Shown here: piece after piece, positions 6,237 to 59,965 of the stretch
Numbering within the stretch: position 1 is the stretch's first letter
Layout: every line of letters begins with the position of its first letter
Assembly (NCBI GenBank): GCA_005791535.1
Contig: SXWH01000232.1
Span: forward strand, 1 to 64,000
DNA length: 64,000 bases
Origin: Verrucomicrobiaceae bacterium
GTDB taxonomy: Bacteria > Verrucomicrobiota > Verrucomicrobiia > Chthoniobacterales > Chthoniobacteraceae
Direction: 5' to 3'
Translations under genes and position numbers: made by a program
The notes under the pieces: generated by a model
What the model was told of the DNA's origin: nothing
Seen by the model: the letters and a program-made list of their open reading frames with translations, nothing else
The model's database searches: none

Positions 6237-7190
6237 GTGAAAAACTTCGCACTCGCACTCCTCGCAGTCAGTCCGCTCGCCTGGGCGGAAGTCACCGTTT
6301 CGGAAAAACAAGGCGCCGTCGCCATATCGATCGATGGCCGGCTGTTCACGGAATATCACTACGGTGATGCTCCGCATGTTTATTACTATCCGGTGATTGG
6401 GCCCGGTGGCGCGAAAATGACGCGCGCTTATCCGATGGAAAAGGCGGATGACGAGGAGACCGATCATCCGCATCACCGCTCGATTTGGTTTTCGCACGGT
6501 GATGTGAACGGCGTGGATTTCTGGAGTGAACCGGCCAGCCACAAAGGAACGCCGAAGCATCCGGTCGGTAAAATCGAGCACGATGGCATCGTGAAAGCAC
6601 AGGGCGGAAAGGAATCGGGATTTGTGGAAACCAAGCAAAAGTGGGTCGCTCCGGACGGCTCCATTCCACTTCGCAGCACCCAGCTTTTTCGTGTCCACTC
6701 GACGGCGGATAGCGAACGTGTCGTCGATTTTGAGGTGACGCTAACCGCGGGCGAAAAGGACGTCGTCCTTGGCGACACCAAGGAAGGCACTGCGGCCATC
6801 CGCATCGCAGAGTCCATGCGGCTGAAGCAACCGAAAGGTCCGGGGAAGGGGACTATCGTGAACAGCGAGGGCGATGTGGACGGCAAGGCCTGGGGCAAGA
6901 AGGCGAAGTGGGTGACGATGGCGGGACCGATTGGCGAAAAGACGTACGCGATTACGATGATGGACCACCCGTCGAACCTCCGGCATCCGACTCGCTGGCA
7001 CGCACGGGATTATGGTCTGTTTGCAGCGAATCCGTTTTGCGAAGTGGAGATGGACAAAACCCAGCCGAAGGGTTCCGGCGACTACACGCTGAAGAGCGGA
7101 AAGTCGCTCACGCTGAAGTATCGCATCGTTTTCTCCGAGGGGGACGCGACGGCGGCAAAGGCTGCGGAGCGTTTTGCGGCTTGGAAGTAG
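6237..7190 (+). CDS. Secreted DUF6807 (PmoA-like) family protein
   Basis: 317 residues with a GTG start and a short signal peptide (NFALALLAVSPLAWA). The body fits the family once named methane oxygenase PmoA and now DUF6807: DHPHHRSIWFSHGDVNGVDFW, later MDHPSNLRHPTRWHARDYGLFAANPF. These proteins are common in polysaccharide-degrading Planctomycetota/Verrucomicrobiota and have no proven link to methane oxidation; the His-rich DHPHHR segment suggests a carbohydrate- or metal-related site. It is divergent from mutL with a 105-base gap. Confidence 0.85.
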   Translation: MKNFALALLAVSPLAWAEVTVSEKQGAVAISIDGRLFTEYHYGDAPHVYYYPVIGPGGAKMTRAYPMEKADDEETDHPHHRSIWFSHGDVNGVDFWSEPASHKGTPKHPVGKIEHDGIVKAQGGKESGFVETKQKWVAPDGSIPLRSTQLFRVHSTADSERVVDFEVTLTAGEKDVVLGDTKEGTAAIRIAESMRLKQPKGPGKGTIVNSEGDVDGKAWGKKAKWVTMAGPIGEKTYAITMMDHPSNLRHPTRWHARDYGLFAANPFCEVEMDKTQPKGSGDYTLKSGKSLTLKYRIVFSEGDATAAKAAERFAAWK

Positions 7191-21875: not shown

Positions 21876-22304
21876 TTAGTAGCCCTCGCCACCGCCGCCG
21901 CCGCCACGGTATCCACCGCCGCCGCCACCGCCACGGTATCCACCACCGCCGCCGCCGCCACCGCCACGGGAGCCACCGCCGCCGCCGCCTTTGTATCCGC
22001 CACCGCCACCACCGCCGCCACGGGATCCACCGCCGCCGCCAGCAGGACGATCTTCTTTCGGACGCGCGATGTTTACCCGGATCGGGCGCCCATCGAGTTC
22101 CTTGTTGTCCATTTCGCGCGCTGCAGCTTCCGCTTCTTCAGGCGTGCTCATCGTCACGAACGCAAATCCGCGGGATTTGCCCGTGAATTTGTCCATCATG
22201 ACGGCGGCTTCCACTACAGTGCCGAATTGTGCGAAGGTATCTTGAAGGATGCCGTCGGTCGTGGTCCATGAGAGATTTCCCACGAATAGTTTGTTGTTAA
22301 TCAT
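21876..22304 (-). CDS. Glycine-rich RRM RNA-binding protein
   Basis: 142 residues. One RRM (2-80) with RNP2 (LFVGNL) and RNP1 (RGFAFVTM), then a tail from about 88 made almost only of Gly with Arg/Tyr/Ser/Lys (repeated GGGGGGYRG units). The layout matches cyanobacterial Rbp and plant GRP proteins, which bind single-stranded RNA and are often cold-induced; the low-complexity tail may drive condensation. The leader upstream carries inverted repeats. Transcription ends at the strong minus-strand terminator downstream. Confidence 0.93.
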   Translation of the reverse strand: MINNKLFVGNLSWTTTDGILQDTFAQFGTVVEAAVMMDKFTGKSRGFAFVTMSTPEEAEAAAREMDNKELDGRPIRVNIARPKEDRPAGGGGGSRGGGGGGGGYKGGGGGGSRGGGGGGGGGYRGGGGGGGYRGGGGGGEGY

Positions 22305-57607: not shown

Positions 57608-58120
57608 GCCATCGCCCGGTCCCGGAGGCGGCTTGATCGGGTCAGAATGGTCAAATTTCGCCACGAAAACGTGAAGTGCCGCACTTGAAGGGCGCTGTAC
57701 GACGGCGGATGGCTGCAGTGCCACGGAAATATTTCAAAGTACCGCCCCGGGAGCCAGAAGTACCGCCCCCGAAGGCCGAAGTACCGCCTCCCAAGCCCGA
57801 AGTACCGCCTCCCGAGCCCGAAGTACCAGGTAATTTGCCCGGAAGACCCGGTACAGCGGTCTCTGGAGGCGGTACTTCGGATTTAGGGCGTGGTACTTTG
57901 TGCCGCTGTGGTAGCACTCCATGCATCTGGGTCGGGTGAACTGCAGGTTGGCGCGGTTGAAGGGCCGATGGCGGCCGATGATTTAATGCTATGAGCAGTG
58001 GAACGAGGTTTGGCGGGCCGCTTTGAACTTGCCCGGGCGAGGCGGGATGTTTCCGGAGGGCGTTGCTGGTTGTGGATTTTTCGCATCGCGAGGTTGGGGG
58101 CGGTCAGCTAGGGTGCGGGG
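57608..58120. other. Gene-free interval carrying the 21-bp array
   Basis: No credible gene is seen in these 513 bases. Both strands stay open through the repeats, giving artificial peptides (PPPEPEV-type on plus, GGGTS-type on minus). The first part has degenerate GAAGTGCC/AGTGCC units and the middle holds the ordered array. The last 180 bases hold only the DUF1275 leader. Confidence 0.6.
57736..57880. repeat. 21-bp tandem array of GAAGTACCGCC units with an inverted copy
   Basis: Units begin at 57736, 57757, 57778, 57799 and 57820, exactly 21 bases apart; the first starts AAAGTACC and the last is truncated. Bases 57865-57880 are a perfect 16-base inverted copy of 57776-57791 and of 57797-57812, so a hairpin or cruciform is possible. 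Weaker copies lie on both sides (57666-57725 and 57889-57912). The core GTAC is palindromic. Confidence 0.8.
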
Positions 58121-58789
58121 ATGATTTCGAAACTTCCGCGTTGGGTGTGGTGGGGGGCGTTTGTGCTCGCTGCGGTGGGCGGGATGGTGAATGTCGTGGG
58201 GTTGCTGGGGTTTGAGCATCAGGCCATCACGCATCTCACGGGGACGACGACCATGCTGGGAGCGGCAATCGGTGAGGGGAATGCAGGGAGGGCGTTGCAT
58301 TTTGCGGCGATGATCGGGGCGTTTCTGGCGGGGACGGCGCTGAGTGGGTGGCTGGTGGAGGATAGTGTGCTGAAGCTGGACGGGCGGTATTATCTGGCGC
58401 TCGGGCTGGAGGCGGTGCTGCTGCTCGCGGCGGTGCCGCTGTTGTGGAAGGGGCGCGAGGCGGGGCTGTATGCGGCGTCGTGTGCGTGCGGTTTGCAGAA
58501 CGCCATGGTGAGTACGTACAGCGGTGCGGTGGTGCGGACGACGCACCTCTCGGGGATGTTTACGGATTTGGGGATTTTCTTCGGGCACTGGCTGCGGGGA
58601 ATCCCGGTGGACGTCCGACGGCTGAAGCTGTGCGGCTCGGTAATCAGCGGTTACGGGCTGGGGGCGGTGGCGGGGACGGTGGCGTTCCGGTCGCTGGGGT
58701 ATTCGGCGCTGGTGGTGCCGGCGGGAATCGTAGCAATGATCGGGGCGGGAAGTGTGGTTTTTAAACGACGCCGCGAACCGCAGGCGTGA
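58121..58789 (+). CDS. DUF1275 (YoaK) membrane protein
   Basis: 222 residues. Six hydrophobic segments with the family hallmarks GGMVNVVGLLGFEHQAITHLTGTTT and CGLQNAMVSTYSGAVVRTTHLSGMFTDLG. Function of the family is unclear; a small-molecule transporter role is often suggested. Codons here are strongly G-ending, in contrast to tgt just before the repeat array. Confidence 0.88.
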   Translation: MISKLPRWVWWGAFVLAAVGGMVNVVGLLGFEHQAITHLTGTTTMLGAAIGEGNAGRALHFAAMIGAFLAGTALSGWLVEDSVLKLDGRYYLALGLEAVLLLAAVPLLWKGREAGLYAASCACGLQNAMVSTYSGAVVRTTHLSGMFTDLGIFFGHWLRGIPVDVRRLKLCGSVISGYGLGAVAGTVAFRSLGYSALVVPAGIVAMIGAGSVVFKRRREPQA

Positions 58790-58862
58790 GGCGTGATTTT
58801 TCTACGGCCGGGCGCGAGTTTTTTCTTGCCGTCGCCGGAACATCCCGATGTAGTAAATCCAG

Positions 58863-58938
58863 CGCCGCGAAAGGCTGGGGATGACTGGGCCGGATTCTGG
58901 GGGGAACAACTGGTTCGGCTCCCCAGCCTTTCGCGGCG
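58863..58938 (+). repeat. REP-like palindromic element, copy 1
   Basis: A perfect 19-bp inverted repeat (58863-58881 with 58920-58938) encloses a 38-base GC-rich loop region. It is followed by ATTTTCTTTTTTT, so the plus-strand RNA would form a terminator-like hairpin. Copy 2 at 59073-59148 is identical at 74 of 76 positions. Confidence 0.9.
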
Positions 58939-59072
58939 ATTTTCTTTTTTTGCACGGGGCGTGAATGGGGACGGGGAGAGCGCGAAGGATTCAATGCCGC
59001 GGACCGTGGCTTGAATTATAACGAAACAGATTATTGATCCGGAAACGGATTTCCGCTTTATAGAAACCGCTC

Positions 59073-59148
59073 CGCCGCGAAGGGCTGGGGATGTCTGGGC
59101 CGGATTCTGGGGGGAACAACTGGTTCGGCTCCCCAGCCTTTCGCGGCG
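59073..59148 (+). repeat. REP-like palindromic element, copy 2
   Basis: Same 76-bp element in the same orientation, 210 bases from copy 1, with two differences (A/G in the left arm, A/T in the loop). Here the stem reaches 21 bp (59071-59091 with 59130-59150) with one G-U pair. It is followed by a shorter T-rich run (ATTTCTTTTGT). The sequence outside the stem differs between copies, so only the palindrome has been duplicated. Confidence 0.9.
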
Positions 59149-59293
59149 GATTTCTTTTGTACCGATGCAGCCGGTAAAGCAGGCATCGCAGCGCGGCGGG
59201 CTCGCGGCTTTATCCGTCGGCGGGGAAGGGGTGGTGGAGGATCGCGCGCGGTTTGCCTCGCATTGCGCGGGGGACTTCGCGTATCTGCCCCGG

Positions 59294-59965
59294 ATGCAGC
59301 CCACGCTCACTGGAGGTCTCATTTGGTATTTTGTCCTGTTGTATTCAACCGTGCTTCACGAGGCGGCCCACGCTTGGGCGGCGAAAAAGCTCGGGGATGA
59401 TACGGCGTATCGCGGAGGGCAGGTGTCGCTGGACCCGATTCCGCACATCATGCGCGAGCCGTTCGGGATGGTGATTCTGCCCATCCTGAGCTACATGTAC
59501 AACGGCTGGATGATGGGCTTTGCGAGCGCGCCGTACGACCCGCACTGGGCGCTGCGTTTCCCAAAGCGGAGCGCCACGATGGCAATGGCCGGGCCTGCGG
59601 CGAATCTGCTGCTGGCCACGGTGGCGTTTGTGCTGCTGGTGGCCGGGGCAAAGGCGGGGAAGTTCGTCCCGATGATGGTCCAGGAGGGGACCGATGTGTG
59701 GGCGCTGATTGGGATGATGCTCTTCGTGATGTTTATGCTGAACACGGTGCTGATGGTTTTCAATCTGCTGCCGCTGCCGCCGCTGGATGGTTCGTCGATC
59801 CCGCTGTTCTTTTTACAAGGGAGCAAGGCGGAGCAATACCAGCACTTCATCTGGCAGCCGCACATCGCGTTCATCGGGATGGCGGTGGCTTTTTACGGAG
59901 GCGGCGAGGTGGTGTGGCGGGTGTTTTACAAAGTGTACGGGCTGCTGGTGCACATGGCGTATTAG
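59294..59965 (+). CDS. M50-family (site-2 protease-like) membrane metallopeptidase
   Basis: 223 residues from the ATG at 59294. HEAAH zinc motif at 22-26 inside the first membrane segment; AMAGPAANLLLATVAF and NLLPLPPLDGSSIPLFF carry the second motif with the zinc-binding Asp. The small size and lack of a PDZ domain place it with compact M50B-type proteins. Substrate unknown. It follows the REP-like elements by about 145 bases. Confidence 0.88.
   Translation: MQPTLTGGLIWYFVLLYSTVLHEAAHAWAAKKLGDDTAYRGGQVSLDPIPHIMREPFGMVILPILSYMYNGWMMGFASAPYDPHWALRFPKRSATMAMAGPAANLLLATVAFVLLVAGAKAGKFVPMMVQEGTDVWALIGMMLFVMFMLNTVLMVFNLLPLPPLDGSSIPLFFLQGSKAEQYQHFIWQPHIAFIGMAVAFYGGGEVVWRVFYKVYGLLVHMAY

Follow-up and report, generated by a model that had tools for sequence, protein, structure and literature searches.

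The stretch of DNA analysed here (64,000 nt, hereafter the window) carries on its + strand a gene for a DUF1275 membrane protein (58121..58789; Pfam PF06912) and, downstream of it, a gene for an M50 peptidase (59294..59965, + strand; Pfam PF02163), whose start at 59294 was chosen by us within a longer ORF that might alternatively begin at 59165. With the start at 59294, the two genes are separated by a gap of 504 bases, and this gap does contain the two near-identical 76-bp palindromes claimed for it in a preliminary description, both oriented on the + strand at a spacing of 210 bp and identical at 74 of 76 positions. Copy 1 (58863..58938) consists of a 19-bp stem with fully (100%) complementary arms, two single-base bulges, an inner stem of 9 bp, and a G-rich apical loop; copy 2 (59073..59148) possesses a 21-bp stem with arms that are 95% complementary, extending to 59071-59150, and the interior between the arms comprises 38 nt. 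The apical motif TTCTGGGGGGAAC is located at 58895..58907 in copy 1 and at 59105..59117 in copy 2, in both cases on the + strand. The T-rich run described as following each palindrome is present at both copies (58939..58951, a candidate terminator U-tract, and 59149..59158, both +), and the flanking sequences differ as had been stated, apart from about 10 bases beyond the palindrome over which the likeness continues (86 nt at 95%). Upstream of each copy lies a candidate sigma70-like promoter on the + strand, assigned by consensus resemblance only: TTGCCG, 17 nt, and TGTAGT for copy 1 (58826..58854), and TTGATC, 17 nt, and TTTATA for copy 2 (59034..59062). A scan of the window at stricter thresholds returned no promoter.

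Folded as RNA, copy 1 reaches an energy of -58.7 kcal/mol (z = -7.95) and copy 2 one of -63.1 kcal/mol (z = -6.99); none of 200 shuffled sequences was as stable, and the opposite strand folds more weakly, at -45.5 and -46.8 kcal/mol. Within the window, a 25-base core pattern allowing up to three mismatches matches the two palindromes only, with 0.00 matches expected. Other repeats in the window are a 21-bp tandem repeat of 4.3 copies ahead of the DUF1275 gene (57737-57827) and GC-rich tandem repeats of 27-33 bp (21887-22041).

Distribution and covariation of the palindromes

The assembly from which the window derives (5.16 Mb in 294 contigs, 86.6% complete) contains 6 copies of the palindrome, namely the pair in the window and four more, each alone on a contig of its own, and its nine relatives in the genus contain 0-6 copies per genome. 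Altogether, 20 copies are found in 6 of the 10 genomes of the genus, so that the earlier view of the palindrome as a dispersed multi-copy unit is borne out and a simple local duplication without other copies can be discarded. In a search of 97 related genomes, matches were confined to the same genus, four of them being partial and situated inside an insertion sequence. A covariance model built from the 20 copies and run on 57 relatives recovered the same 20 and no extra one, and in a phylum-wide sample of 387 genomes the model matched the window's own genome only. A pattern scan of named genomes yielded 15 contigs, 14 of which come from MAGs labelled Chthoniobacteraceae, Spartobacteria, or Prosthecobacter; the fifteenth, a Spirosoma match embedded in unrelated sequence, was judged to be due to chance. 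Viral contigs, phages, and plasmids gave no match to the palindrome, and an origin from a phage or plasmid was rejected on this basis.

A high-copy insertion sequence of genome G007, which we take to be ISL3-like from its terminal bases and neighbouring frame, has at its 5' end 25-31 nt in common with the left half and the loop of the palindrome (ACTGGGCCGGATTCTTGGGGGAACAA); it occupies 21 places, for the most part near the ends of contigs (for example, L047:1458-1604, L058, L061, L064, L067, and L069-L085).

In the alignment of the 20 copies, the outer arms vary from copy to copy and their complementarity is kept. RNAalifold predicts a single rod of 34 pairs, and compensatory changes, which by preserving a common fold are the mark of a structured non-coding RNA, occur in 13 of them. 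Paired cells amount to 96.9%, against 88.6 (sd 0.7) in shuffled alignments, and double-change cells to 53, against 14.4 (sd 3.6), neither value being reached in any of 500 shuffles. The same holds for four of the five measures of the covariation test, and the remaining one, which counts further pair types, is ordinary (188 of 500 shuffles). Read on the + strand, the alignment contains 82 G-U cells versus 4 A-C cells, an imbalance that argues for RNA of the + strand, since strand-neutral decay of a DNA palindrome would not give rise to it. Four orthologous sites could be compared between species pairs, and there the element is identical at 76/76, 75/76, 72/76, and 75/76 positions, as opposed to 106/157, 120/151, 135/150, and 58/112 in the DNA upstream (95-100% vs 52-90%); this conservation reflects selection and points to RNA. 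Rfam holds no gathering-level match for the window, and at E values up to 10 only sub-threshold matches, mostly to miRNA models, were obtained.

The apical 13-mer in a second, putative family of short RNAs

The motif TTCTGGGGGGAAC was first noticed in weak matches of the first genome search, where it stood just before unrelated terminators. It is kept exactly in 16 of the 20 palindromes, the other four deviating, and these 16 are among the 72 sites at which it occurs in 13 genomes of the family (2-12 per genome), in which the reversed pattern used as a control has 0 sites. The sites outside the palindromes mostly consist of GTTCTGGGGGGAACA, immediately followed by a hairpin terminator and then by a T-run, and the layout of this second family comprises a putative intergenic promoter, GUUCUGGGGGGAACA, and a separate terminator hairpin. 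When a stem of 12 bp or more directly after the 13-mer and 5 T in 8 bases were demanded, 47 of the 55 distinct non-palindrome sites of the family passed; two of the 8 misses are devoid of a hairpin (L237 and L249) and the others have a weaker stem or tail. Of the 10 other genomes that represent the same order in the phylum sample, 8 contain the 13-mer, and 7 of the 8 sites read there (out of 13, the window's own genome apart) passed the same strict test, the eighth being short by one T. Outside the order, none of the 21 sites read among the 31 listed did so. With the reversed control, 10 of the 387 phylum genomes gave a match, none of them within the order.

The 13 bases served as an exact search key, so that their constancy across the short family is partly given by construction; not contained in the key are the G preceding the 13-mer, the A following it, and the hairpin, which covaries at 11 of 18 pairs in an alignment of 40 of the 62 sites chosen for similar hairpin length. 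At 11 of the 62 sites, for example upstream of L226, L254, and L273, a CTAAY-like N16 GTCTTA motif ends exactly 6 nt before GTTCTGG. It resembles an alternative-sigma promoter class and reads like one promoter class, the transcript of which would start at the motif. Taken over all of its sites, the short family shows no enrichment of sigma70-like scores (6.80 vs 6.70; 66 of 300 shuffles).

Exact tandem copies of the short RNA, spaced by about 300-330 nt and with conserved neighbouring genes, are present in three species (three copies at G002:C6:2528-3179, two at G007:C15:36459-36801, and two at G000:C240:19832-20145). An attenuator of a fixed downstream gene was rejected as an explanation, the neighbours of the short RNAs not being conserved with few exceptions; these are orthologous loci of close species, one downstream ORF found at 3 of 8 order loci (28-43% identity), and a second such ORF present at 2 of 8. 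Membership in a known RNA family was likewise rejected, as neither the palindrome nor the short family (20 loci) is matched by Rfam.

In both families the motif is predicted to fold as UUC-UGGGGG-GAA with the G-rich loop open. A homology of the palindromes and the short RNAs would rest on this one motif, and convergence or chance copying might also account for the likeness.

Among sequences listed as viral in IMG/VR, L329 (near position 6718) and L310 contain GTTCTGGGGGGAACA followed by a 15-bp stem and few T, so that a phage might carry the small RNA; L329 also encodes Mu-type portal and transposition genes. A complete short-family site is found on L333, which is viral-listed and has tail genes, and 34 of the 37 viral matches carry no short-family site.

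Promoter-like signals, terminators, and rival readings

The best sigma70-like site ahead of the palindromes scores on average 7.29 matches, against 6.51 (sd 0.21) in shuffled sequences, none of 300 being as high; this test employed 17 of the 20 palindromes, L143, L150, and L153 having been left out as orthologues of others and both members of the orthologous pair L141/L145 having been kept. In most cases the second hexamer stops 6-10 bases short of the point two bases upstream of the stem, a nearly fixed distance. These promoter-like signals just upstream, the covariation at the RNA level, and the loop common to an order-wide RNA family go beyond what the preliminary description contained.

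A role in transcription termination, which it did propose, is supported for about half of the copies, which resemble intrinsic terminators: 11 of the 20 palindromes, both window copies among them, combine a GC-rich stem with a T-run behind it (5 or more T in the next 8 bases). The other 9 lack the T-run, which leaves their 3' end unexplained. The palindromes might be duplicated strong, partly bidirectional intrinsic terminators and nothing else, with a conserved loop that is incidental. Several copies do lie between codirectional genes, and an A-run before the stem in L142/L143 could be used by the opposite strand. According to our simple gene caller, however, the neighbouring genes are codirectional, convergent, or divergent, and where the upstream gene is divergent, as at several palindromes, the hairpin cannot be the terminator of that gene. 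Conserved bulges, a conserved apical loop, and promoter-like signals directly upstream also set the palindromes apart from intrinsic terminators, and a plain terminator would have no need of a fixed loop, yet the 13-mer recurs throughout the order in another RNA. For these reasons, together with the copies devoid of a T-run, we judge a pure terminator function to be unlikely. L138, L139, and L140 agree over about 45 nt upstream of the palindrome and have in common a downstream gene that contains a collagen-like GPPGPAGP stretch, and two genes there show weak similarity to tail proteins.

It had also been suggested that the palindromes are REP/BIME- or MITE-like elements, and the dispersed, multi-copy part of that suggestion holds. 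REP/BIME elements of RAYT transposases fall into GTAG and CGTC super-families, and the GTAG type is reported to be abundant in O. terrae (PMC3733652). As compared with what is described there, the palindromes resemble REP/BIME elements in being intergenic, multi-copy, sometimes situated beside other palindromes, and capable of forming an RNA hairpin, but they measure 76 bp instead of 20-40 bp, have locus-specific arms, low copy numbers, no RAYT nearby, and a clear RNA-strand bias, and the alignment of the 20 copies, with its varying outer arms and flanks, shows no constant GTAG or CGTC tag at the base of the hairpin. A different palindrome pair at L137:1763-1868, which starts with GTAG (GTAGCCCGCGAGTCCCTTCGCGG ... 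CTAC) and adjoins a palindrome copy, resembles the GTAG REP type.

An association with a RAYT gene is not supported by the six Y1_Tnp matches in the window's own genome, none of which is accompanied by a palindrome element within the stretches of up to 1.5 kb covered on each side; at the four of these loci that were inspected, other repeats are present. The numerous copies typical of REP elements are not found either (6 in the own genome), nor are the constant terminal inverted repeats of a MITE, the outer arms differing between copies and being self-complementary. Inspected by eye, the bases to the left and right of each window copy show no match that might constitute a target-site duplication. 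Among the orthologous loci read (FolD, HesB, YhbY, LpxA, DegT, and M50 flanks) there is no clean empty site, and a test by empty sites of whether the core had been inserted into older terminators failed because gene order is mostly not conserved. Membership in the REP/RAYT system or among MITEs is not supported.

Part of the dispersal is nevertheless repeat-like, as three copies (L137, L147, and L151) are mosaics that have about 275 nt upstream in common, a stretch that takes in a further palindrome and the terminal part of a reading frame. Such shared longer flanks, the intergenic copies dispersed at unrelated sites, and the very presence of Y1 transposase matches in the genome would suit a mobile DNA repeat spread by a transposase and without any role as RNA. 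The low copy number, locus-specific arms in place of a constant terminal repeat or tag, the lack of an element within the up to 1.5 kb covered on either side of the Y1 matches, the excess of G-U over A-C cells, and the selection at orthologous sites tell against such a repeat, and we give it little credence. Still further down, a structure-specific single-stranded DNA site, i.e., a recombination or replication hairpin, is suggested by the fixed bulges and the long hairpin on one strand, and G-T pairs are tolerated in DNA as well, but the promoter-like signals upstream, the loop shared with a terminator-bearing RNA family, and the lack of an attC-like core on inspection by eye make it highly improbable.

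Candidate partners and a possible regulatory role

The two best-known partners of bacterial small RNAs seem to be out of the question, since neither was found in the genus: the Hfq model matched in none of 12 genomes and the CsrA model in one (G044), which is outside the genus. A function as a CsrA sponge was rejected for the same reason. Pairing of the motif with the 16S anti-Shine-Dalgarno sequence, at -9.5 kcal/mol, was equalled by 253 of 1000 shuffled motifs and is therefore unsupported. The binding of a protein, as envisaged early on, may be entertained as a possibility, in that the conserved loop could bind a partner.

We consider it probable, though well short of certain, that each palindrome represents a small-RNA gene, or else the hairpin of a leader, which is specific to the genus and displays a G-rich loop. 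Against this reading stand the 9 palindromes with no T-run, the 4 that deviate from the 13-mer, the missing enrichment of sigma70-like scores in the short family, the stricter promoter scan of the window, and the repeat-like part of the dispersal. Each palindrome would be transcribed, as a small unit of its own or at the least as a leader, with RNA polymerase starting a few bases upstream of the hairpin and producing an RNA of about 80 nt folded into one long rod, at the tip of which the loop UUC-UGGGGG-GAA, G-rich and fixed, would be exposed. Roughly half of the copies would also terminate the transcript by means of the rod and its U-tract. The arms of the rod appear to be free to vary as long as pairing holds, which would make the loop the part that counts, and the same loop would be presented by the shorter order-wide RNA consisting of promoter, GUUCUGGGGGGAACA, and separate terminator hairpin. 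The likeliest role would be that of a small RNA acting in trans, the loop of which is recognised by a single shared partner. This partner might be a target RNA rich in C or, Hfq and CsrA set aside, a protein that binds RNA.

Multi-copy bacterial small RNAs that present one conserved motif are known from the RsmXYZ/CsrB and Qrr types. As in these systems, putative paralogous intergenic RNAs occur within one genome, partly as tandem copies, with a constant motif, candidate promoters that differ, and intrinsic terminators. In contrast to them, Hfq was not matched in any of the 12 genomes nor CsrA in any member of the genus, the loop is G-rich and neither GGA nor a CU-rich seed, and an extra rod-like architecture exists.

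On a wider and more speculative level, Chthoniobacterales might possess a regulation independent of Hfq and CsrA and centered on the loop UUC-UGGGGG-GAA, in which short RNAs with different promoters would operate throughout the order, rod-shaped palindromic RNAs would have been added in one genus, and the loop would have been taken up by an insertion sequence and a Mu-like phage that tap or imitate the system; we regard this as possible but doubtful. Our literature search, which covered few subscription papers, revealed nothing describing either RNA family and nothing in print on RNA regulation in Chthoniobacterales. If the proposal is true, an undescribed small-RNA family would be conserved across an order of freshwater relatives of Verrucomicrobia, and the palindromes would provide a case of a palindromic repeat family that is defined by its conserved loop and not by its stem. 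The asymmetry between G-U and A-C cells, combined with covariation of the arms, may offer a way to separate palindromes selected as RNA from selfish REP elements.
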